38,693 bases of DNA from Paracoccaceae bacterium (lineage in GTDB: Bacteria > Pseudomonadota > Alphaproteobacteria > Rhodobacterales > Rhodobacteraceae). Below are positions 1,850 through 26,386 of the stretch, piece after piece (the stretch's first letter is position 1; each line of letters starts with the position of its first letter). Both the position numbers and the translations under genes were made by a program. Under the pieces are notes generated by a model that did no database searches, was not told the origin of the DNA, and worked only from the letters and a program-made list of their open reading frames with translations. Where the stretch lies: contig WOUW01000013.1 of the NCBI GenBank assembly GCA_009773055.1, positions 1 to 38,693 of the forward strand, given 5' to 3'.

Positions 1850-2821
1850 ATGCAGGCCTGGCAGATCACCAATCCCGGAGCTACGCCAGTATTGGCCGAG
1901 ATTGAGCCACCTATTCCCGTTAAAGGCGAAATCGTTGTCCGTGTAGAAGCAGTTGGGCTCAACTTTGCGGATATGCTCGCGATTCAAGGCAAGTATCAGG
2001 TTCGCCACCCATTTCCCTATATTCCGGGGATGGAGCTTTCCGGCGTCGTCGAGGCCTCAGGTCCCGATACGACTGGTCCTGCGCCGGGGACAAGAGTCCT
2101 TGCGACCTGCCCGGCGGGGGCATTGGCCCGTCGGATCGCGCTTTCGGCACACCGCGTCAGTGTGGTTCCGGACGGCATGGGCTTTGAAGAGGCTGCCGGG
2201 TTCCCGATCGCTTACGGCACGTCCCATCTTGCCCTCACCCACAAGGCCCGCCTCCAACCTGGCGAGACTCTGTTCGTGACCGGGGCGGCAGGTGGCGTCG
2301 GGCTGACCGCTGTCGAGATCGGCAAGCGCTTGGGCGCGCGGGTCATCGCTTCGGCGCGGGGGGTCGACCGGCTTGACGTGGCGCGGCGAGCGGGGGCGGA
2401 TGTGCTGATCGACAGCGAGGCTCCGGGCCTGAAAGAGGCGCTGCGGGCCGAAGGTGGCGTCGATGTGGTTTACGATGCCGTCGGCGGTCCGGCCTTTGAC
2501 GAGGCGCTGCGGGCGTGCAAACCGGACGGGCGGCTTCTGGCCATCGGCTTTGCCTCGGGCGTCGTGCCGCAGGTTCCGGCGAACCTGCTGCTGGTGAAGA
2601 ACCTGACGGTGTCCGGCCTCTGGTATGGCGGCTATGAAACGCACGCCCCCGATCTGGTGGCTGCCAGCATGACCGAACTTTTGCGCTGGCGGGCCGAGGG
2701 GCTGATCCATCCCCATGTCAGCCACATCCTGCCCTTCGAGGCGTTCCCCGAGGGTCTAGCCCTGCTGCGAGACCGCAAGGCTACCGGAAAGGTCGTGATC
2801 CGGGTCGGTCAGGCGCCGTAA
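1850..2821 (+). CDS. zinc-independent NADPH:quinone oxidoreductase family protein (MDR superfamily)
   Basis: This 323-aa protein has the full medium-chain dehydrogenase/reductase layout. A GroES-like N-terminal domain (about residues 25-110, with GLNFADMLAIQG) is followed by a Rossmann domain whose nucleotide-binding motif GAAGGVG lies at 145-151. The structural and catalytic zinc cysteines of alcohol dehydrogenases are absent, which fits the quinone oxidoreductase (QOR) branch. These enzymes reduce quinones or enones with NADPH in the cytoplasm. The 3' end overlaps the 3' end of the convergent LysR gene by 13 nt. The ATG at 1850 follows an AAGGGG sequence. Confidence 0.85.
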   Translation: MQAWQITNPGATPVLAEIEPPIPVKGEIVVRVEAVGLNFADMLAIQGKYQVRHPFPYIPGMELSGVVEASGPDTTGPAPGTRVLATCPAGALARRIALSAHRVSVVPDGMGFEEAAGFPIAYGTSHLALTHKARLQPGETLFVTGAAGGVGLTAVEIGKRLGARVIASARGVDRLDVARRAGADVLIDSEAPGLKEALRAEGGVDVVYDAVGGPAFDEALRACKPDGRLLAIGFASGVVPQVPANLLLVKNLTVSGLWYGGYETHAPDLVAASMTELLRWRAEGLIHPHVSHILPFEAFPEGLALLRDRKATGKVVIRVGQAP

Positions 2822-3660
2822 GCGCAGCGCAATTCGCTGACCAGAAGATCCACCGCCTCGTCCGCGCGACGGCTCGCGCGGTAAAGCGCCAGCTTCATCT
2901 CGCCGACCGGGGGCAACTGGTTGTCGCCGGCAATCGGCGTCATGCCTTCGGGAATGCTGCCGACCATCCGCACCGACACTGCCAGATCGGCCGCCACGGT
3001 CGCTTCGACCGCCTGTTCGCTTTCGCCGCCTGTCGCCATCTCCCAGGGGATGTTCGCCGCCTCAAGCGCTGTCTGCGCGCGGCCCCGGAAGATGCAGGTG
3101 TCCTTGAAGCCCAGCCGCAACGGCCGCCGCTGCCAGGCATTCCCCTCTTGCGCGCCGACCCAGACGAGCCCGCGCGATGACAGAACTTCGGCCCCCGGGT
3201 CCGGACTTTCCTCGGTCGTCAGCATCACATCGAACGCGCCGCGGACGAAATCCTGCTTCATCACCAGCGTGAAGGACGACACAAGATTGATCCGCACGCG
3301 GGGATAGGCTTGTGCCATGCGCTTCAGGATGCCCGGTATCGCCGGATAGACCACGTCATGCGGCACACCAAGGCGGATTTCCCCTTCGCAGGCCTGCGAC
3401 GACAACAGCGACAACGCCTCGTCGTTCAAGGCCAGCATCCGGCGGCCATAGGACAGAAGCTGCTCACCCTCGGGCGACAGCGCCAGCTTGCGCGCCGCCC
3501 GAAGGAAGAGCGACAGCCCCAACGAATCCTCCAGCCGCTTGATCTGCATCGAGACCGCCGACTGGGTAAGGTTCAGGTACCCCGCCGCCCGCGTCACTCC
3601 GCCCACATCGGCAACGGTGACGAAGGAACGCAGGGCTGACAGATCAAGGTTGCGCGGCAT
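2809..3660 (-). CDS. LysR-family transcriptional regulator
   Basis: This 283-aa protein has the LysR winged helix at residues 6-65: LDLSALRSFVTVADVGG, then the recognition helix with NLTQSAVSMQIKRLE. A periplasmic-binding-protein-like effector domain begins around residue 90. It is divergent from the small DUF1127 gene 125 bp away and convergent with the quinone oxidoreductase. LysR proteins usually regulate a divergent neighbour, so the DUF1127 gene is the first candidate target. The effector is unknown. Confidence 0.85.
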   Translation of the reverse strand: MPRNLDLSALRSFVTVADVGGVTRAAGYLNLTQSAVSMQIKRLEDSLGLSLFLRAARKLALSPEGEQLLSYGRRMLALNDEALSLLSSQACEGEIRLGVPHDVVYPAIPGILKRMAQAYPRVRINLVSSFTLVMKQDFVRGAFDVMLTTEESPDPGAEVLSSRGLVWVGAQEGNAWQRRPLRLGFKDTCIFRGRAQTALEAANIPWEMATGGESEQAVEATVAADLAVSVRMVGSIPEGMTPIAGDNQLPPVGEMKLALYRASRRADEAVDLLVSELRCAYGA

Positions 3661-12437: not shown

Positions 12438-13451
12438 ATGACCGGAAAAGAAAAGCCCAAAGCCCCCGAGAAGGCCGACACTCCGGAAGGTGAGCGGATC
12501 GCCAAGGTCCTGTCCCGCGCTGGCATCGCCTCGCGCCGCGAGGCGGAAAGGCTGATCGAACTGGGCGAGGTCAAGGTCAACGGCAAGACCATCACTTCCC
12601 CCGCCCTGAACGTGACCCCGAAGGACAAGATCACTGTCCGGGGCGAGCCGGTTGGCCAGCCGGAACCCCCGCGCTTGTGGCTTTACTACAAGCCTGAAGG
12701 TCTGGTGACCTCGGCGTCGGACGAAAAGGGCCGCGACACGGTTTTCGACCACCTTCCCGAAGACATGCCCCGGGTGATGTCGATCGGGCGGCTCGACCTC
12801 AATTCGGAAGGTCTGCTTTTGCTGACCAACGACGGCGAGCTGAAACGGAAGCTGGAATTGCCCTCGACCGGATGGCTGCGGAAATACCGGGTCCGCGTGA
12901 AGGGCAACCCGACCGAGCCGGAAATCGAACCCCTGAGGAAGGGGATCACCGTGGACGGCGACCGCTTTCAGCCGATGGAGGTCAAGATCGACCGGCATCA
13001 GGGCGCGAACGCCTGGCTGACCGTGGGCCTGCGCGAGGGCAAGAACCGCGAGATCCGCCGAGCGATGAACCACATCGGGCTGACGGTGAACCGGCTGATC
13101 CGCATATCTTACGGGCCGTTCCGGCTGAACGAGCTGCAACCTGGCGAGGTCGAGGAGCTGAAACCCCGCGTGCTGCGTGAACAACTGGGGCTGAGCGACC
13201 CGGACGAGCCCGCCAAACCCGTCCGCAAGCTTGCCCCCAAGCCCGGCAAGACGGGGACGCGGTCCACCGGTCCGAGCGAAGATCGGGCGAAGGCAGCAAA
13301 ACCAGCGCTGAAGCCCGGCGAGGGGTTGAAGCAACTGTCCGAGACCTGGCAGAAGGCCACGCGCCCCCCGGTCCGCAAGTCCGCCGAACGCCCTGCGGCT
13401 GGCCGTCCCGTCCGGCCCGGCCCGCGCCCCGGCGGGCCAAAGAAAGGCTAG
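12438..13451 (+). CDS. RluB/RsuA-family 23S rRNA pseudouridine synthase
   Basis: This is 337 aa from ATG 12438 (GAAGGA 8 nt upstream; ATGs at 12429 and 12432 are alternatives). An S4 RNA-binding domain (ERIAKVLSRAGIASRREAER) is followed by the synthase domain. Its catalytic Asp lies in MSIGRLDLNSEGLLLLTND, and further family motifs are WLRKYRVRVKG and LREGKNREIRR. RluB modifies position 2605 of E. coli 23S rRNA; RluB and RluE/RsuA are hard to separate by eye, though RluB is most likely. The last 110 residues are a basic Pro/Lys/Arg-rich disordered tail of a kind common in alphaproteobacterial members. It is divergent from tadA. Confidence 0.85.
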   Translation: MTGKEKPKAPEKADTPEGERIAKVLSRAGIASRREAERLIELGEVKVNGKTITSPALNVTPKDKITVRGEPVGQPEPPRLWLYYKPEGLVTSASDEKGRDTVFDHLPEDMPRVMSIGRLDLNSEGLLLLTNDGELKRKLELPSTGWLRKYRVRVKGNPTEPEIEPLRKGITVDGDRFQPMEVKIDRHQGANAWLTVGLREGKNREIRRAMNHIGLTVNRLIRISYGPFRLNELQPGEVEELKPRVLREQLGLSDPDEPAKPVRKLAPKPGKTGTRSTGPSEDRAKAAKPALKPGEGLKQLSETWQKATRPPVRKSAERPAAGRPVRPGPRPGGPKKG

Positions 13452-14416
13452 CCCCGGCTTTTCGCTTCCAGCGCTGACAGACTGTCGGGCAGGAAGCGTT
13501 CGGAAAAGCCGGCGATGAAGCACCAGACGATCAACTTGGCAAAGTTGGCCGATGGACCCTCATAGGGCATCCCGTCCCCGTTGTGCACGGTCCACAGGTC
13601 TCCGAAGCCGCCAGTTGCCCCATTTTCGGGGGCCGGAAACAGCTCTCCGCCGATGAGGTGACCCGAAATCACGAAATACAGGATCACCGAGGACAAACCC
13701 CCGACCAGAAGTCGCACCATCAGGAAATGCCAGGAATAGCCGTTTTCGAGGTCATCGACGCTGAGTTTTACCGCGGTGTTCTGGAAAGCGATCAACCGCG
13801 ACAGGTAGGCACCGAGAAAGCCGAAGAAGGTCGTCACGATCAGGTTGTATTTCACCAGGTCGGTAAAGGGCATCTTCTCGACCGCGACGGCAAACCAGCC
13901 GGTGCCAAGGACCAGAAATACGCCGACGATCACGCCCGTCAGACCGAAACCAAGGTAGGTCATCCGCTTGGCCACAAGGGCGCGCTCGGCCCGTTCTGAC
14001 CGCCGAGCGGCATAGCGGTTGTGGGTGTCGCGCAGGAGCTTGGCCAGAAGGGCCTGCTTGACCTCGTCCGACTGCGTGCCATCTCGCCGCTTGTTCAGAA
14101 TGCCAAAGGACGGCACCAGGATCTTTTCGGCGGTCAGGAAGGCACTGTCGAGCGCCACATCCAGATCGGGGCCAAGCTTCAACTGCACCAGAAGTATTTC
14201 GATCTCGTTCGGGATCTCCCAGTTGCGCCAGTTCTCGGGTGCGTCGGTGATCTTCTGGTCGAGGAGCGCCTCGATCCGAAGGTCCTTCTTGGCAGGATGC
14301 TGGACGAGGTGTCGATGATAGCTGGCCCGAAGGCCGGCCATATGCGCGGCCCAGGCGCGTTCTTCGCCGCGTCTGCCCATGCTGTCCGTGCTGGCGTTGC
14401 TGTCGGTGTCCTGCAT
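13448..14416 (-). CDS. uncharacterised four-helix membrane protein divergent from the TelA cluster
   Basis: I do not recognise a named family. The 322-aa protein has a hydrophilic, charged helical N-terminal half (1-150). Four hydrophobic segments follow, at about 153-178, 190-210, 230-254 and 292-310. The soluble part would lie in the cytoplasm under the positive-inside rule (Arg/Lys-rich THNRYAARRSERAERALVAK just before helix 1). No catalytic motif is visible. Its start faces the XpaC-TelA operon about 210 bp away. Its stop overlaps the pseudouridine synthase stop. Location suggests, but does not prove, a part in the same envelope function. Confidence 0.65.
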   Translation of the reverse strand: MQDTDSNASTDSMGRRGEERAWAAHMAGLRASYHRHLVQHPAKKDLRIEALLDQKITDAPENWRNWEIPNEIEILLVQLKLGPDLDVALDSAFLTAEKILVPSFGILNKRRDGTQSDEVKQALLAKLLRDTHNRYAARRSERAERALVAKRMTYLGFGLTGVIVGVFLVLGTGWFAVAVEKMPFTDLVKYNLIVTTFFGFLGAYLSRLIAFQNTAVKLSVDDLENGYSWHFLMVRLLVGGLSSVILYFVISGHLIGGELFPAPENGATGGFGDLWTVHNGDGMPYEGPSANFAKLIVWCFIAGFSERFLPDSLSALEAKSRG

Positions 14417-14628
14417 GGCTGTCCCTTTCGTAAAGGGTCACGTCATCAAAAAAGGCATTCCAATTTCTGAAGGCTGCGCTCTTTGCCGATTCCAAGCAAG
14501 TCGGGGGTCCATGACCCGAGTGTGCCCTGTGGGGGGAAGAATGCTGCCGATTCCCCCCCGGGGCCGCTGGCAAGGGGCACAGGCATCGGCTAAGGTCAGG
14601 CCGAGGTCGGAACGCAGGAGGTCGCGCC

Positions 14629-14712
14629 ATGTCGGGAACCGGACTAAGGAACCTGTCCCTGACCTTGCTCGTTGCCTTGGTGGCCTATGTGGCCTGGTCG
14701 GGGGGCGTCTGA
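14629..14712 (+). CDS. 27-aa single-pass membrane peptide, first gene of the XpaC-TelA operon
   Basis: ATG 14629 is preceded at 7 nt by GGAGG. It opens a 27-codon frame encoding MSGTGLRNLSL followed by TLLVALVAYVAWSGGV, a single hydrophobic helix after a short Arg-containing head. Its TGA (14710-14712) shares the A with the ATG of the XpaC-like gene (TGATG), the classic arrangement for translational coupling. The strong ribosome site, the start/stop overlap and the clean membrane-helix composition argue for a real gene. It could also act as a leader peptide controlling xpaC. I know of no named family. Confidence 0.65.
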   Translation: MSGTGLRNLSLTLLVALVAYVAWSGGV

Positions 14713-15575
14713 TGGCCGAACGGTTCGGCGGGAAATTCTCGCCACAAGGGTCGCGCACTGACGCGGGCGTCCCGGTCCTGACCGAGGCGAGGCCGAAGGG
14801 TCTTTGGCGCGCGAACCTGCTGTTTCTGACGGCTTTCCTGTTCTTGCTCCCGGCCTTCGGTGATGGCCCGCGCGAGATGCTCTTGGGCCTTGCTGCCGGG
14901 GGGCTGGTCATTTTGGCCGCCTGGCTGAGCCGCGAAGGCCTGCGGGCCGAAGCCGCCTATGACGCCCGCAAGCTGGCGCGCCGTCCAACTTTTCCGCGCA
15001 AGCTGGCCGGGGCAGTCCTGACGGGGGCTGCGCTGGCGCTGGGGGGCGTGATCGCCGACCAGGGGCTGGTCTATCCCGCCCTTTATGCGCTGGTCGGGGC
15101 GGGGCTGCATCTGGGGGCCTTCGGGCTGGACCCGATGGCGGACAAGGGCATGGAGGGGGTCGATGCTTTCCAGACCGGCCGGGTGGCCAACGCGGTCGAA
15201 GAAGGCGAGAAGTATCTGGCCGGAATGAAGGACGCGATCCTGCGCGCCCGCGACCGTGTGCTGGAGCGTCGTGTCGAACAGTTTTCCGCTGCGGCCCGGA
15301 CCCTGTTCCGTACGATCGAGGCCGATCCGGGCGATCTGACGGCGGCGCGAAAGTACATGTCGGTCTACCTGATGGGCGCGCGCGATGCGACGGTGAAGTT
15401 CGCCGACCACTATGCCCAGAACCGCGACACATCGGCCCGCGCCGACTATGAGGAACTCTTGACCGATCTTGAGACGACCTTTGCAGAAAAGACAAAGACC
15501 TTCCTTACCAACAGTCGCAGCGATCTGGACGTCGAAATCTCTGTCCTGCGCGACCGCCTGAAACTTGACCATTGA
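14712..15575 (+). CDS. XpaC-like protein (5-bromo-4-chloroindolyl phosphate hydrolysis family)
   Basis: This is 287 aa from ATG 14712. Two pairs of hydrophobic segments lie at about 35-75 and 95-140. A cytoplasmic helical domain follows, with VDAFQTGRVANAVEEGEKYL and RDRVLERRVEQFSAAARTLF, matching the XpaC/HrpA-like family found beside telA genes. The family name comes from a Bacillus phenotype; its biochemical role is unknown. It is translationally coupled to the upstream 27-aa peptide, and telA begins 18 nt downstream. Envelope stress or toxic-anion tolerance is inferred from the TelA partnership. Confidence 0.75.
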   Translation: MAERFGGKFSPQGSRTDAGVPVLTEARPKGLWRANLLFLTAFLFLLPAFGDGPREMLLGLAAGGLVILAAWLSREGLRAEAAYDARKLARRPTFPRKLAGAVLTGAALALGGVIADQGLVYPALYALVGAGLHLGAFGLDPMADKGMEGVDAFQTGRVANAVEEGEKYLAGMKDAILRARDRVLERRVEQFSAAARTLFRTIEADPGDLTAARKYMSVYLMGARDATVKFADHYAQNRDTSARADYEELLTDLETTFAEKTKTFLTNSRSDLDVEISVLRDRLKLDH

Positions 15576-15593
15576 ACCCCAACGGGAGTGACC

Positions 15594-16680
15594 ATGTCCG
15601 AGACCGTCCAAGCCAATGCCACAGCCCTACTGACCGAGGTCGAGAAGGTCACCGCCGTGATCCTGCCGGAACCGATGGCCGAGGTCGTGCCGCTTCGGGT
15701 CATCCGCCCAGGCCGAGCTGCAGGTAATCAGCCAGGAAATGCTGCAGGACGTAAAGAACAAGGACGTGGGGCCTGCGGGCGACAGCTTGCGCAAGATTGT
15801 CACCACGATCCGCGGGTTTGCCGCCGAAGAGCTGGACCTGCGCCGCGAGGCGAGCTGGTGGGAAAAGCTTCTGGGCCGCGCCGCGCCCTTTGCCGAATTC
15901 GTCGCGCAGTATGAGGACGTGCAGAGCCAGATCGACAAGGTCACAGGCGAGCTTCTGACCCATGAGCATACCTTGCTCAAGGATATCAAAAGCCTGGACG
16001 TGCTGTATGAAAAGACCCTGACCTTCTACAACGAACTGGCGCTTTACATCGCGGCGGGCGAAGCAAAGCTGACCGAGACCGACACTATGACCATTCCGGC
16101 CAAGGAAGCCGATGTCGCCAAGGCCCCCGAGGCCGATCAGGTGATCCGCGCGCAGGAATTGCGCGACCTTCGGGCCGCCCGCGATGACCTGGAACGCCGG
16201 ATCTATGATCTGCGGCTGACCCGGCAGGTGACAATGCAGTCCTTGCCTTCGATCCGGCTGGTGCAGGAAAACGACAAAAGCCTTGTGACCAAGATCAACT
16301 CGACCCTCGTGAACACCGTGCCGCTGTGGGAAACCCAACTGGCGCAGGCCGTGACGATTCAGCGGTCGAAGGAAGCCGCCGAAGCGGTGCGCGACGCCAG
16401 CGACCTGACGAACGAGCTTCTGAAGGCAAATGCCGAAAACCTGCAGTCGGCAAACAAGGTGGTCCGCGAGGAAATGGAGCGCGGGGTCTTCGACATCGAG
16501 ACGGTGAAGGCCGCCAACGCGACCCTGATCGCCACGATCAACGAAAGCCTGGCCATTGCCGACGAAGGCAAGGCCCGTCGCGCTACAGCCGAGGCGGAAC
16601 TCATCAAGATGGAGGCGGAACTGCGCGACACGCTGGCGGCTGCAAAGGCCCGCCAGGTGGCCCCAGCGGCCACGGCCTGA
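15594..16680 (+). pseudogene. telA: TelA-family toxic anion resistance protein, interrupted by a frameshifting gap
   Basis: The start is ATG 15594, with GGGAG upstream. The N-terminus MSETVQANATALLTEVEKVT runs in frame to VVPL at 15695 and then loses sense. From 15694 another frame reads FGSSAQAELQVISQEML and continues as typical TelA to ATA and TGA at 16680, with long coiled-coil helices and signatures such as DVKNKDVGPAGDSLRKIV and AELRDTLAAAKARQVAPA. Relatives have about 25-30 residues between these parts, usually with a DM-x-D-T type segment. So roughly 80 nt (not a multiple of three) look deleted. Intact TelA proteins are soluble and linked to tellurite, detergent and lantibiotic tolerance. 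Either the gene is broken or the assembly is. Confidence 0.85.
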
Positions 16681-16697
16681 GGCGGCGGCCGCGGGGC

Positions 16698-17636
16698 ATG
16701 GTCAGGGGTCGAACAGTGAAGGCGGCTCTGGCTATGGCCAGCGGCATGGTCCTCGGGGGGTGCATCGCCACCAGCCCGGGGAGCGGTATGGGCCCGCAAC
16801 CTGTTCTGGAACCGTTGCCCCTGGCCGCCCCCACACCGAAAAGCGCCGCTGCAGCAGCCTATTACGCCCAGGTTCAGCAGGCACTTCTTGCCCAGGGCAT
16901 GCTGCGGTCCGACGGTGGCGGCGACATCCCGGTCACCGACCGGATGCTGGCCGAGAATTTCCTGCGGATCGCGCTTTTTGACGAATATCGCCGGGGCTCG
17001 GGTGGGTTCGTGCGCGGCGAAACCGAAAGCAGCCTGCGCCGTTGGGAAGGCCCCGTCCGCATCGGCATAAACTTTGGCGCAAGCGTGCCTCCCGACAAGC
17101 AAGCGACCGACCGCGCACGGATTGCCAGTTTTGTCGACCGGCTGTCCCGGATCACCGGGCACCCGATGTCGGTCGATGACCGCGCGCCGAACTTCTTCAT
17201 CTACATCGTCTCGGAGGACGAGCGCGAGGCTTTGGGCCCCACCATTCGTGCCACCCTGCCCGGTCTTGGCATGGGCGAAGTGGCCGGAATCACCGGCATG
17301 CCGCGTACGACCTATTGCCTTGTCTACGCGCTGGCCGAGGGCAATTCCGGGTCATACACCAAGGCCTTCGCGGTGATCCGCGCCGAACACCCCGACCTTC
17401 TGCGCCTGTCCTGCCTGCATGAGGAACTGACGCAAGGCCTTGGCCTGCCGAACGATTCTCCACGCGCGCGGCCCTCGATCTTCAATGACGACGAGGAATT
17501 CGCGCTGTTGACCGACCAGGACGAGCTTATGTTGCGCATGCTTTACAGCCGCGAGCTACGCCCGGGCATGTCCGCGGCGGAAGCCCGCCCCATCGTCTTC
17601 TCCCTTGCACGCCGGCTGACCGGCGGCGAAAGTTGA
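16698..17636 (+). CDS. DUF2927 domain lipoprotein
   Basis: This 312-aa protein begins with a signal peptide ending in GMVLGGCIAT, a lipobox with Cys at 22. The DUF2927 domain follows: MLAENFLRIALFDEY, WEGPVRIGINFGASV, then RTTYCLVYALAEG and the characteristic LSCLHEELTQGLGLPNDSP with the HEE-x-x-x-x-x-G pattern of a zinc-metalloprotease-like helix. The domain resembles gluzincin proteases, though activity is not established. The protein would be lipid-anchored in the periplasm. It begins 18 nt after telA. GTG 16716 is an alternative start. Confidence 0.75.
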   Translation: MVRGRTVKAALAMASGMVLGGCIATSPGSGMGPQPVLEPLPLAAPTPKSAAAAAYYAQVQQALLAQGMLRSDGGGDIPVTDRMLAENFLRIALFDEYRRGSGGFVRGETESSLRRWEGPVRIGINFGASVPPDKQATDRARIASFVDRLSRITGHPMSVDDRAPNFFIYIVSEDEREALGPTIRATLPGLGMGEVAGITGMPRTTYCLVYALAEGNSGSYTKAFAVIRAEHPDLLRLSCLHEELTQGLGLPNDSPRARPSIFNDDEEFALLTDQDELMLRMLYSRELRPGMSAAEARPIVFSLARRLTGGES

Positions 17637-17657
17637 CCCCAAACAAAGGGTATCCCA

Positions 17658-18755
17658 ATGGTCTTCGATTTTCTCAAAGGCGAATTCATCGACGTCATCT
17701 CATGGCTGGATGACACGCGCGACACGATGGTCTGGCGGTTCGACCGTCGCGGGCAGGCGATCAAGATGGGTGCCAAGCTGACGGTCCGAGAGGGCCAGGC
17801 CGCAGTCTTCATCCACGAAGGCCAGCTGGCCGACGTCTTCACCCCCGGTCTCTACATGCTGGAGACCAACAACCTGCCGATCCTGACCACGCTGCAGCAC
17901 TGGGACCACGGCTTTCAATCGCCGTTCAAGTCCGAGATCTACTTCGTCAACACCACAAGGTTCAACGACCAGAAGTGGGGCACGAAGAACCCGATCATGG
18001 CGCGTGACCCGGAGTTCGGCCCGATCCGCCTGCGCGCGTTTGGCACCTACTCGATGCGGGTCAGCGATCCGGGCAAGTTCATCCAGGAAGTCGTCGGCAC
18101 GGACGGCGAGTTCACCTCGGACGAGATCAGCTTCCAGATCCGCAACGTGATCGTGCAATCCGCGTCGCAAGTGCTGGCCAAGTCGGGCATTCCAGTGCTG
18201 GACATGGCGGCAAACACCGCCGACCTTGGCAAGATCATCGCCAATGCCATCGCCCCGCAGGTCGGGGAATACGGCCTGACCATTCCGGAATTCTACATCG
18301 AAAACATCAGCTTGCCGGAAGAGGTCGAAAAGGCCCTGGACAAGCGCACCTCGATGGGTGTGGTGGGCGACCTTAACCGCTACATGCAGTTCAACGCGGC
18401 CGAAAGCATGGGTCAGCCGGGCAGTGCCATGGGGTCGGCCATGGGGGCCGGGATGGGCATGGGGATGGGTGCAAGCATGGCGCAAAACATGGGCCCCTGG
18501 GGATCGCAGCCGGGTGCCGCCGCCGCTCCGCCGCCACCACCGCCAGCGCCCGCAGGCAAAGCCTGGCATCTGGCCGCAGATGGCGCAACGAGCGGTCCCT
18601 TCACCGAGGCTGACCTTGCCCAGTGGGCGACCGAAGGCCGGTTGAACCGCGCGACGATGGTGTGGACCGCCGGTCAGGATGGCTGGAAGATGGCCGCCGA
18701 GACCGAGCTTGCCCGGCTTCTGGATCAGGTTCCCCCGCCGCTGCCCAAACCGTAG
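17658..18755 (+). CDS. SPFH-domain protein with C-terminal GYF_2-like module
   Basis: This 365-aa protein has an SPFH/virion-core-like domain over about residues 30-250: KMGAKLTVREGQAAVFIHEG, QVLAKSGIPVLDMAANTADL and LPEEVEKALDKRTSMGVVGD. A Gly/Met/Ala- and Pro-rich linker follows at about 258-305. The C-terminus is a GYF_2-like peptide-binding module (AWHLAADGATSGPFTEADLA, ending WKMAAETELARLL). No transmembrane helix is seen. SPFH proteins form ring scaffolds at membranes; a GYF-type domain usually binds Pro-rich peptides. It lies 21 nt after the DUF2927 gene and 2 nt before the zinc-ribbon gene. Confidence 0.8.
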   Translation: MVFDFLKGEFIDVISWLDDTRDTMVWRFDRRGQAIKMGAKLTVREGQAAVFIHEGQLADVFTPGLYMLETNNLPILTTLQHWDHGFQSPFKSEIYFVNTTRFNDQKWGTKNPIMARDPEFGPIRLRAFGTYSMRVSDPGKFIQEVVGTDGEFTSDEISFQIRNVIVQSASQVLAKSGIPVLDMAANTADLGKIIANAIAPQVGEYGLTIPEFYIENISLPEEVEKALDKRTSMGVVGDLNRYMQFNAAESMGQPGSAMGSAMGAGMGMGMGASMAQNMGPWGSQPGAAAAPPPPPPAPAGKAWHLAADGATSGPFTEADLAQWATEGRLNRATMVWTAGQDGWKMAAETELARLLDQVPPPLPKP

Positions 18756-18757
18756 CC

Positions 18758-19894
18758 ATGCCGCAGGACGAATTTCGCTGGCCGTGTTCCCAATGCGGCG
18801 CGCAGTTGCGCTATGCTCCTGGCCAGACCAGCTTGACCTGCGAAAACTGCGGTCATGTGCAAGCCATCGCTCCCGACCGCCCCCGCGACCGCGCGCGCGC
18901 GCTGCAAGAGCTTGATCTTGCTCGCGGATTGCGTGACGATCTTGCGGCGTCGGACATGGTCGAAGTGCGCACAACGTCTTGCCCGAACTGCGGCGCCAGG
19001 GTCGAGATCACCGAAGCGACGCATGCCACCGAATGCCCGTTCTGCGACACGCCCGTGGTGCTGGATACGGGCACCCAGCGCCACATCAAGCCGCAGGCGC
19101 TGGTTCCCTTCGTGCTGACCGAACCGCAAGCGCGGGGAGCGATGATCAAGTGGTTGGGGAGCCTCTGGTTCGCGCCCGGCACGCTTCTGGAATACGCCCG
19201 CAAGGGACGCGCGATGACCGGGATCTACGTGCCGTTCTGGACCTTCGACGCGGACACTGCAAGCCGCTATTCGGGCGATCGCGGCGAGTATTACTACGAG
19301 ACCCGGACAGTGCAGGTGCGGGTCAACGGTCGGATGGAGCGCCGTGAGGAACGGGTGCGCCGGACGCGCTGGTATTCGGCATCGGGCCGCGTGTCGCGCG
19401 ATTTTGACGACGTGCTGGTCATGGCCTCGCGCAGCCTGCCCGCGCGGCTTGGCAACGAGCTGACGCCCTGGGACCTCGGCGCGCTGACGAGCTATACCCC
19501 TGAATTTCTTGCCGGTTTCCGCGCCGAGGGCTATTCCGTCCCCCTTGCTGATGGTCTGGTCGAGGCCCGCGACCGGATGTCCGACGTGATCCGCAGCGAC
19601 GTGCGGCGCGACATCGGCGGGGACGAACAGCGCATCCATTCCGTCGACACCGACTGGTCGGACGAGACCTTCAAGCACATCCTTTTGCCGGTCTGGATGG
19701 CGGCCTACAAATACAACGGCAAAAGCTATCGCTTCCTGGTCAACGGCCAGACCGGCGAGGTTCAGGGCGAGCGGCCCTGGTCGGTCTGGAAGATCGCGCT
19801 GGCGGTTATTTTCGTTGCAGCTGTGATACTTGGGGCGGTCTACCTGTCGGACCCCAAGGCTGTCGGCCTGCCACAGCCCGAGTGGATGAACTAG
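18758..19894 (+). CDS. double zinc-ribbon, C-terminally membrane-anchored protein
   Basis: This is 378 aa from ATG 18758. Two zinc ribbons are evident: Cys10, Cys13, Cys28, Cys31 and Cys75, Cys78, Cys93, Cys96. A large beta-rich domain follows (IYVPFWTFDADTASRYSGDR, HILLPVWMAAYKYNGKSYRF). One transmembrane helix lies at about 345-363, close to the C-terminus. Proteins of this shape are often annotated as primosomal protein N'-like or TFIIB-type zinc ribbon, but they lack helicase motifs. It closes the operon, and its stop overlaps the stop of the opposite small membrane gene by 4 nt. The position beside SPFH suggests they act together. Confidence 0.75.
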   Translation: MPQDEFRWPCSQCGAQLRYAPGQTSLTCENCGHVQAIAPDRPRDRARALQELDLARGLRDDLAASDMVEVRTTSCPNCGARVEITEATHATECPFCDTPVVLDTGTQRHIKPQALVPFVLTEPQARGAMIKWLGSLWFAPGTLLEYARKGRAMTGIYVPFWTFDADTASRYSGDRGEYYYETRTVQVRVNGRMERREERVRRTRWYSASGRVSRDFDDVLVMASRSLPARLGNELTPWDLGALTSYTPEFLAGFRAEGYSVPLADGLVEARDRMSDVIRSDVRRDIGGDEQRIHSVDTDWSDETFKHILLPVWMAAYKYNGKSYRFLVNGQTGEVQGERPWSVWKIALAVIFVAAVILGAVYLSDPKAVGLPQPEWMN

Positions 19895-20076
19895 CTGTTC
19901 CGCTGAAAGAACAGCATGTAGCCGGCATAGGCCCCGGCGGCCAAGAACATCAGGCCCCAGAACGGCGACTGGAGATAGAAAAACTCCATCAGCCCCCAGC
20001 CGATGGGCAAAATGACGGTGACCCAGCGCACCAGAGGGTGGCGGAAGAACGGGTCGTTGGGGTCGAGAAACTTCAT
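19891..20076 (-). CDS. small conserved membrane protein
   Basis: This 61-aa protein opens with MKFLDPNDPFFRHPLVRW, and two hydrophobic helices follow (about 18-34 and 40-56). The FLDPNDPFF opening is a pattern I associate with Rhodobacteraceae small inner-membrane proteins. The function is unknown. It is convergent with the zinc-ribbon gene, with a 4-nt overlap. Confidence 0.7.
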   Translation of the reverse strand: MKFLDPNDPFFRHPLVRWVTVILPIGWGLMEFFYLQSPFWGLMFLAAGAYAGYMLFFQRNS

Positions 20077-26309: not shown

Positions 26310-26386
26310 GGGCTCATAGCTCAACTGGATAGAGCAAGGACCTTCTAAGTCCGAGGTTGGGGGTTCGAGTCCTCCTGGGCCCGCCA
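26310..26386 (+). tRNA. tRNA-Arg (anticodon TCT)
   Basis: This is a 77-nt cloverleaf with encoded CCA. Acceptor GGGCTCA pairs with TGGGCCC, with one T-G pair. The anticodon loop CTTCTAA sits on GGAC/GTCC. The T arm is GGGGG-TTCGAGT-CCTCC. The TCT anticodon reads AGA and AGG codons, which are rare in this GC-rich genome. Confidence 0.95.

Follow-up and report, generated by a model that had tools for sequence, protein, structure and literature searches.

A conserved six-gene operon of Rhodobacterales places XpaC, TelA and a 27-residue membrane microprotein beside an SPFH/zinc-ribbon protein pair

TelA and XpaC are widespread protein families that, to our knowledge, have no agreed biochemical role. 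The question raised by the locus described here, on contig WOUW01000013.1 of the Paracoccaceae bacterium assembly GCA_009773055.1, is whether the genes that accompany xpaC and telA encode a single membrane assembly with them. The window, by which we mean the whole stretch of 38,693 nucleotides that was analysed, is contig 57 of an assembly that is 59% complete and comprises 87 contigs, and, among named matches, Tabrizicola and Rhodobacter are the nearest. A first-pass annotation had proposed that six closely spaced genes, together with a divergent membrane protein gene, form an envelope-stress machine spanning both sides of the inner membrane. We find that the six-gene operon is real and conserved, that it is a variant of a known SPFH/zinc-ribbon kind, and that it includes a conserved microprotein matched by no family model searched. 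We propose, with a probability of roughly 0.45, that the operon encodes one inner-membrane scaffold that is independent of PspA and YdjGI-like, is coupled to XpaC-TelA and has a lipoprotein on its outer side.

From the microprotein to the zinc-ribbon gene (Table 1), the six codirectional genes are separated by -1, 18, 17, 21 and 2 nt, which agrees with the spacing of 21 nt or less first reported, and the stop codon of the microprotein shares one base with the xpaC ATG (TGATG). The XpaC, TelA, DUF2927 and SPFH-GYF identities were all confirmed by Pfam matches. The last protein is membrane-anchored, as had been suggested, with two pairs of CxxC motifs (residues 10, 28, 75 and 93) and one C-terminal transmembrane (TM) segment at residues 346-364. 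A hydropathy scan predicts TM segments for XpaC, the microprotein and the zinc-ribbon protein, none for the SPFH protein and TelA, and export of the lipoprotein.

Table 1. Features of the operon and its surroundings in the window, with the basis of each assignment
Feature	Position	Strand	Basis or remark
Promoter-like footprint CTGGCA-N17-CTAAGG, upstream of the microprotein	14567..14595	+	Alignment of 33 upstream regions and pattern count
27-aa single-pass membrane microprotein	14629..14712	+	Kept before xpaC; coding constraint
XpaC (PF10112), four hydrophobic segments followed by a soluble C-terminal part	14712..15575	+	Pfam 79 bits; hydropathy scan
telA (PF05816), broken; N-terminal piece from 15594, remainder listed from 15739	15594..16680	+	Pfam 319.5 bits
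DUF2927 (PF11150) lipoprotein, lipobox LGGC	16698..17636	+	Pfam 210.7 bits
SPFH protein (Band_7_1, PF13421), C-terminal GYF_2, no TM segment	17658..18755	+	Pfam 342 bits; GYF_2 55.7 bits
Double zinc-ribbon protein, C-terminal TM segment, YdjG-like architecture	18758..19894	+	CxxC positions, TM scan, alignment A2
Divergent membrane protein, outside the conserved unit	13448..14416	-	Match in 3/80 related loci

Conservation was assessed in 80 related loci, the top-ranking ones of 565 retrieved with the SPFH protein as query, so that the presence of SPFH among them is by construction. Counts use these loci (L031-L110) and the window unless stated, since a smaller set (L001-L030) shares genomes with them. 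DUF2927 was matched in 79 of the 80, TelA in 78, the zinc-ribbon protein in 77 and XpaC in 71, some loci being cut by contig ends; the pseudouridine synthase gene upstream was matched in 64 and the divergent gene in 3. All five large genes occur in the same order in 52 of the 56 related loci longer than 15 kb, far beyond chance, and all five are found in 21 of 28 wider Rhodobacterales loci. Of the 61 genomes sampled from the order, 60 gave a strong SPFH match; in G071, a member of the window's family, strong SPFH, zinc-ribbon and TelA matches were all absent, XpaC and DUF2927 not having been searched there. A second copy of the zinc-ribbon gene, besides the one near SPFH, was matched in two pieces in G073 (contig 30, 29217-30227).

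The wider association of the parts was surveyed in 142 Alphaproteobacteria, about one per family, and in 299 Pseudomonadota, for which only some of the first-look candidates per genome were scored. Strong SPFH matches were those above 200 bits, TelA was counted above 100 bits and, in the phylum survey, the zinc-ribbon protein above 80 bits. The co-occurrence sets therefore exclude PF13421 matches below 200 bits, read as other band-7 proteins; TelA matches below 100 bits in either survey (for the class, 39.5 bits in G158 and 20.3 in G188); and zinc-ribbon matches below 80 bits in five genomes of the phylum survey, of which four (G425, G441, G458 and G504) adjoin a strong SPFH gene and one (G494) is in a genome without strong SPFH.

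In the class survey, XpaC was found in 9 genomes, TelA in 11, SPFH in 7, the zinc-ribbon protein in 6 and DUF2927 in 17. Every XpaC genome (9/9) and every strong-SPFH genome (7/7) also carries TelA, and all six zinc-ribbon genomes hold XpaC, TelA and SPFH too. With the window's family left out, Fisher tests, which ignore the tree, gave P = 2e-10 for TelA with XpaC and P = 3e-7 for SPFH with the zinc-ribbon protein. Four genomes from four other families (G152, G226, G212 and G159) have the order xpaC-telA-spfh-znr with no DUF2927 gene between. DUF2927 and TelA occur together in 2 of 140 genomes outside the window's family (P = 0.25), lying on different contigs in G159 and about 4.7 kb apart on opposite strands in G207, and DUF2927 is thus not supported as a general partner. 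The co-occurrence expected by the first-pass annotation therefore holds across the class for XpaC, TelA, SPFH and the zinc-ribbon protein, and fails for DUF2927 beyond the family.

Across the phylum, zinc-ribbon matches above 80 bits were found in 27 genomes, all with strong SPFH. The two genes lie about 2 kb or less apart in 23 of them and about 3 kb apart in G065; the zinc-ribbon gene is elsewhere in G067 and G069, and in G261 the distance is undecidable because that gene is at a contig end. Eight further genomes have strong SPFH and no zinc-ribbon match above 80 bits, four of them with a weak match beside SPFH. Plasmid records from Vibrio, Comamonas and Tsukamurella also carry the pair, and an Enterococcus plasmid has SPFH, zinc-ribbon and TPM genes side by side. 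On this distribution, the SPFH/zinc-ribbon pair is the wide core, XpaC-TelA has been added to it in several alphaproteobacterial families, and a further layer, DUF2927 together with a recognisable microprotein, is seen in the window's family. As a separate observation, the pair on the Vibrio coralliilyticus plasmid (L178, 1-6041) has a TIR-domain gene at a distance of about 3 kb and, in between, two unnamed genes on the opposite strand, possibly a defence neighbourhood. A defence role for the operon studied here was rejected, because PADLOC gave only weak matches, those of the zinc-ribbon protein.

Several observations weigh against a single coupled assembly. Among the 56 related loci over 15 kb, no xpaC match was found in L070, L072 and L102 and no zinc-ribbon match in L099. 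Among the wider loci, DUF2927 was unmatched in L187 and L194, and the zinc-ribbon gene is missing from the stretch read in L166, L168, L191 (a contig end) and L193; L166 and L168 represent one genus, g37 (genomes G067 and G069), that has the gene elsewhere in the genome. Four of the 11 TelA genomes of the class survey (G040, G131, G137 and G207) lack strong SPFH, TelA and SPFH are about 128 kb apart in G048, and G159 carries a second, lone xpaC-telA pair. Outside the family, TelA is present in 2 of the 13 zinc-ribbon genomes of the phylum survey (P = 0.36).

The closest known counterpart of the core, which the first-pass annotation had missed, is the YdjI/YdjG pair of B. subtilis. As described by Ravi et al. 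2024 (PMC11237479), YdjG combines a YpeB-related domain with two zinc ribbons and a TM segment, and its operon also encodes PspA, a TPM protein and a band-7 protein. YdjI is described as lacking a TM segment, needing YdjG/H at the membrane and bringing PspA there (Savietto Scholz et al. 2021, PMC8581546); passages of PMC9239133 agree with this picture, and those of PMC10936438 state that YdjI is required to bring PspA to the membrane. Like YdjI, the window's SPFH protein is a PF13421 member without a TM segment, and the B. subtilis control matched the same family. Its neighbour has two zinc ribbons and a TM segment, as the YdjI-YdjG type of pair has, although the likeness to YdjG is one of described architecture and not of direct comparison.

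The two systems differ in their other parts: pspA-ydjGHI has PspA and a TPM protein, whereas the window's unit has XpaC, TelA, the lipoprotein and the microprotein. No PspA was found by Pfam among the block genes, which sets the unit apart from a phage shock protein (PSP) system, and no TPM protein (YdjH) was found among them, the rest of the genome not having been searched for one. Across the order, 39 of the 61 genomes gave no PspA (PF04012) match; in the 22 that have it, it is on another contig than SPFH in 10 and on the same contig at a distance of at least 28 kb in 12.

The C-terminus of the SPFH protein also differs, being a GYF domain where YdjI is described with a zinc finger (PMC8581546, in the section seen). 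Among eight SPFH proteins, five end in GYF (those of the window, L119, L121, L160 and L178), that of L164 in a helix-turn-helix domain, that of L124 in SHOCT (just under the cut-off) and that of Enterococcus in a double-zinc-ribbon match that is under the cut-off. A lineage-dependent swap of this domain was noted for the SPFH genes of L124, L164, L177 and L178. Myxococcus AgmX, which we take to be a synonym of GltJ, differs as a gliding-motility protein. Its GYF domain is matched by that of the SPFH protein (7z3c, E 6.4e-6), with only the GYF stretch aligned.

Two further comparisons place the remaining genes. Firmicutes have xpaC-telA (yaaN) pairs, such as lmo1966-lmo1967 of Listeria, but the window's pair sits in a longer operon that adds the SPFH and zinc-ribbon genes and a preceding membrane microprotein. 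SPFH/zinc-ribbon pairs of other Pseudomonadota and of Actinomycetota (L159-L165 and the Tsukamurella, Vibrio and Comamonas plasmids) have the same two proteins adjacent, but within the stretches read neither XpaC nor TelA was matched next to them. In the open-licence PMC literature we found no paper joining TelA, XpaC and SPFH, none combining band 7, TelA, zinc-ribbon and GYF in threes, and none linking a small membrane protein with a TelA/SPFH operon in Rhodobacteraceae; the portions of PMC2636767, PMC13086221 and PMC10936438 that were consulted contain nothing on XpaC-TelA beside SPFH. A Listeria study treats XpaC/TelA genes, in the part available, in the context of bacteriocin tolerance (PMC12791056).

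If the operon does encode one scaffold, the SPFH protein would, like YdjI, oligomerise on the cytoplasmic face, held at the membrane by the TM-anchored zinc-ribbon protein, much as YdjI is kept in place with the help of YdjG. The microprotein may pack into the membrane part of the four-TM XpaC, which in turn would carry soluble TelA, and TelA would stand in for PspA and the TPM protein YdjH of Firmicutes. A partner could bind to the GYF domain of the SPFH protein, the DUF2927 lipoprotein could report on or act at the periplasmic side, and the assembly together might stabilise or reorganise a damaged membrane. Of the first-pass proposal of a single machine across the inner membrane, the conserved unit and the parts predicted on both sides stand; the divergent gene and the protease role do not.

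A possible envelope-stress role is argued by analogy with the B. subtilis and Listeria relatives; a housekeeping scaffold would account just as well for the near-universal presence in the order. Under that alternative, the SPFH and zinc-ribbon proteins would be a chaperone platform for membrane-protein assembly or quality control, with XpaC-TelA as clients or adaptors, and no stress response would be involved. The core-genome pattern speaks for it, as does the discussion, in the excerpt of PMC11237479, of band-7 and TPM proteins in a chaperone-like assembly role; we judge it a plausible minority view. We are similarly doubtful of the most far-reaching form of the scaffold proposal, in which the operon would be a core-genome, PspA-independent membrane-repair or membrane-organising machine of Rhodobacteraceae, XpaC-TelA would replace PspA-TPM on a YdjGI-type scaffold, the microprotein would be a dedicated subunit of XpaC, and a degenerate metzincin-like lipoprotein (E, Q, N) would couple the periplasm to it.

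In a family of which 60 of 61 sampled genomes carry the SPFH gene, the coupling of XpaC-TelA to the SPFH/zinc-ribbon pair offers a concrete complex to purify and links the problem of TelA to SPFH scaffolds. The microprotein, a small partner at every readable xpaC of the family, is directly testable. If the scaffold proposal is true, the use of one scaffold by PspA-TPM in Firmicutes and by XpaC-TelA here would show that its parts are exchangeable.

The microprotein (MSGTGLRNLSLTLLVALVAYVAWSGGV, 27 residues) is a real gene. The peptide of the first-pass annotation is this open reading frame (ORF) before xpaC; a fragment of TelA at 15594-15914, considered for the same label, was dropped. In 69 close loci, namely the window and the 68 of L031-L110 that hold the xpaC start and enough upstream DNA, a hydrophobic small ORF ends at or just before the xpaC start in all 69, and it is exactly 27 aa long in 62. 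The search takes the most hydrophobic candidate, and 4800 ATGs drawn at random from these loci, possibly with true sites among them, yielded 131 positives in the same test. The ratio of nonsynonymous to synonymous variation (pN/pS) is 0.56 in the reading frame of the microprotein, whereas the two alternative frames give 1.10 and 1.62; for comparison, the first codons of xpaC give 0.63. In the wider family, the microprotein is present at all 27 xpaC-holding loci (25 by script, and L190 and L194 by reading frames), no xpaC being seen in the 28th, L171. The consensus of 90 sequences is M-S-x-x-G-L-Q/R-x-L-S/A-F/L-x-L-L-x-A-L-x-x-Y-V-A-x-x-G-G-x, and no match was found among Pfam, NCBIfam and PHROGs models. 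L193 has tandem XpaC genes (1560-2387 and 2563-3453), the second of which is preceded by the microprotein.

A recognisable microprotein in the block was seen only in the window's own family. At loci from other families, small hydrophobic ORFs end near possible xpaC starts, themselves uncertain, in 3 of 8 (L119, L120 and L126), against a background of 19 of 382 long ORFs in the same fetched stretches that were scored slightly differently; under a stricter test, L126 had one such ORF and L119-L122 and L137 had none.

A promoter-like pattern, derived from an alignment of 33 upstream regions and counted within the same sequence set, occurs 57-93 nt upstream of the microprotein in 43 of the 69 regions, compared with 0.14% of shuffled sequences. 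Its position directly before the microprotein suggests that the microprotein is the first gene of the operon. The same position would suit a leader or coupling device for xpaC translation whose product has no role of its own, as would the overlap between the microprotein stop and the start codon of xpaC, which is seen at 54 of the 69 loci (49 by script and 5 whose xpaC start the script had placed one codon late). We consider such a leader unlikely, however, because length, hydrophobicity and sequence are kept, with the in-frame constraint given above, and because the peptide persists in the remaining 15 loci, where there is no overlap.

A point absent from the first-pass annotation is that telA is broken in the window. 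The match to PF05816, with a curated cut-off of 30 bits, covers profile positions 34-331, and the N-terminus is partly lost through deletion: the piece from the ATG at 15594 and the remainder from 15739 sit in different frames because 86 bp found in relatives are missing at about 15689-15693. Against 34 aligned loci, some drawn from the same genomes, the gap is a single one of 86 bp in 25, the same 86 bp split in 5, and 58 or 63 bp in 4. The stop-to-stop telA frame is closed upstream in 104 of 108 loci with a TelA match, measuring 339 codons in the window, 393-450 in 101 others, and 507 and 709 in two (both of these counts draw on L001-L030 as well as L031-L110). The missing stretch encodes the residues immediately before the segment FGSSAQAELQ. 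In L068, L071 and L085, about 1 kb separates xpaC from telA.

The deletion is either a real lesion or an error in an incomplete assembly; the closest TelA found is 93% identical, so there is no genome of the same species for comparison. If real, the copy would be impaired, as TelA would be translated from the downstream frame without about its first 77 residues. The frame-breaking gap could thus mean that the unit is decaying in this organism, which we think improbable given that the remaining genes of the unit have open frames and are conserved and that, at 59% completeness and 87 contigs, an assembly error is possible. That the operon confers toxic-anion (tellurite) resistance, as the TelA name, the strong PF05816 match and the match of an intact relative to a PHROG labelled tellurite resistance might imply, is very unlikely, since no Ter family is among the Pfam matches shown for the unit, its partners resemble membrane-scaffold proteins, and a Listeria telA paper, judged by its title in the reference list of PMC12791056, ties telA to nisin and cell-wall antibiotics.

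The DUF2927 protein had been described as a metalloprotease-like lipoprotein. The lipoprotein part is upheld, the window's protein having a signal peptide with a lipobox of the bacterial type; a lipobox pattern was found in 17 of 21 aligned members and was unmatched in L053, L057, L066 and L102. HExxH is the zinc site of zincins, and HExxHxxGxxH is the metzincin motif. HExxH is absent from the conserved motif of DUF2927, C-x-x-E-E-x-x-Q-x-x-G-x-x-N-D, the spacing of which is metzincin-like with E, Q and N at the places of the histidines and the glutamate retained. The pattern x-E-x-x-Q-x-x-G-x-x-N is present in 9 of 9 diverse members with no histidine at the ligand positions, and a histidine just before the motif in the window's protein is shared by 4 of the 9. 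The zinc-ligand histidines are therefore not conserved and an active zinc protease is not supported; judged by motif spacing, the protein is possibly a degenerate metzincin-like protease. Profiles of DUF2927, TelA and the zinc-ribbon protein brought up nothing informative among solved structures, and nothing was found on DUF2927 in the open-licence PMC literature.

The divergent membrane protein, counted by the first-pass annotation as a four-TM part of the system, is excluded from the operon by its rarity among the related loci (Table 1). It has three hydrophobic segments above a simple threshold in the hydropathy scan, no Pfam family over the cut-off, and no match in NCBIfam, PADLOC and PHROGs. 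At the other end, a hydrophobic ORF of 61 aa (19891-20076, minus strand) runs towards the zinc-ribbon gene and shares 4 bp with the end of that gene; the ORF is matched in 26 of the 80 related loci and has no family over the cut-off. A tRNA-Arg (TCT) gene at 26310-26386 is the sole tRNA gene found in the window.

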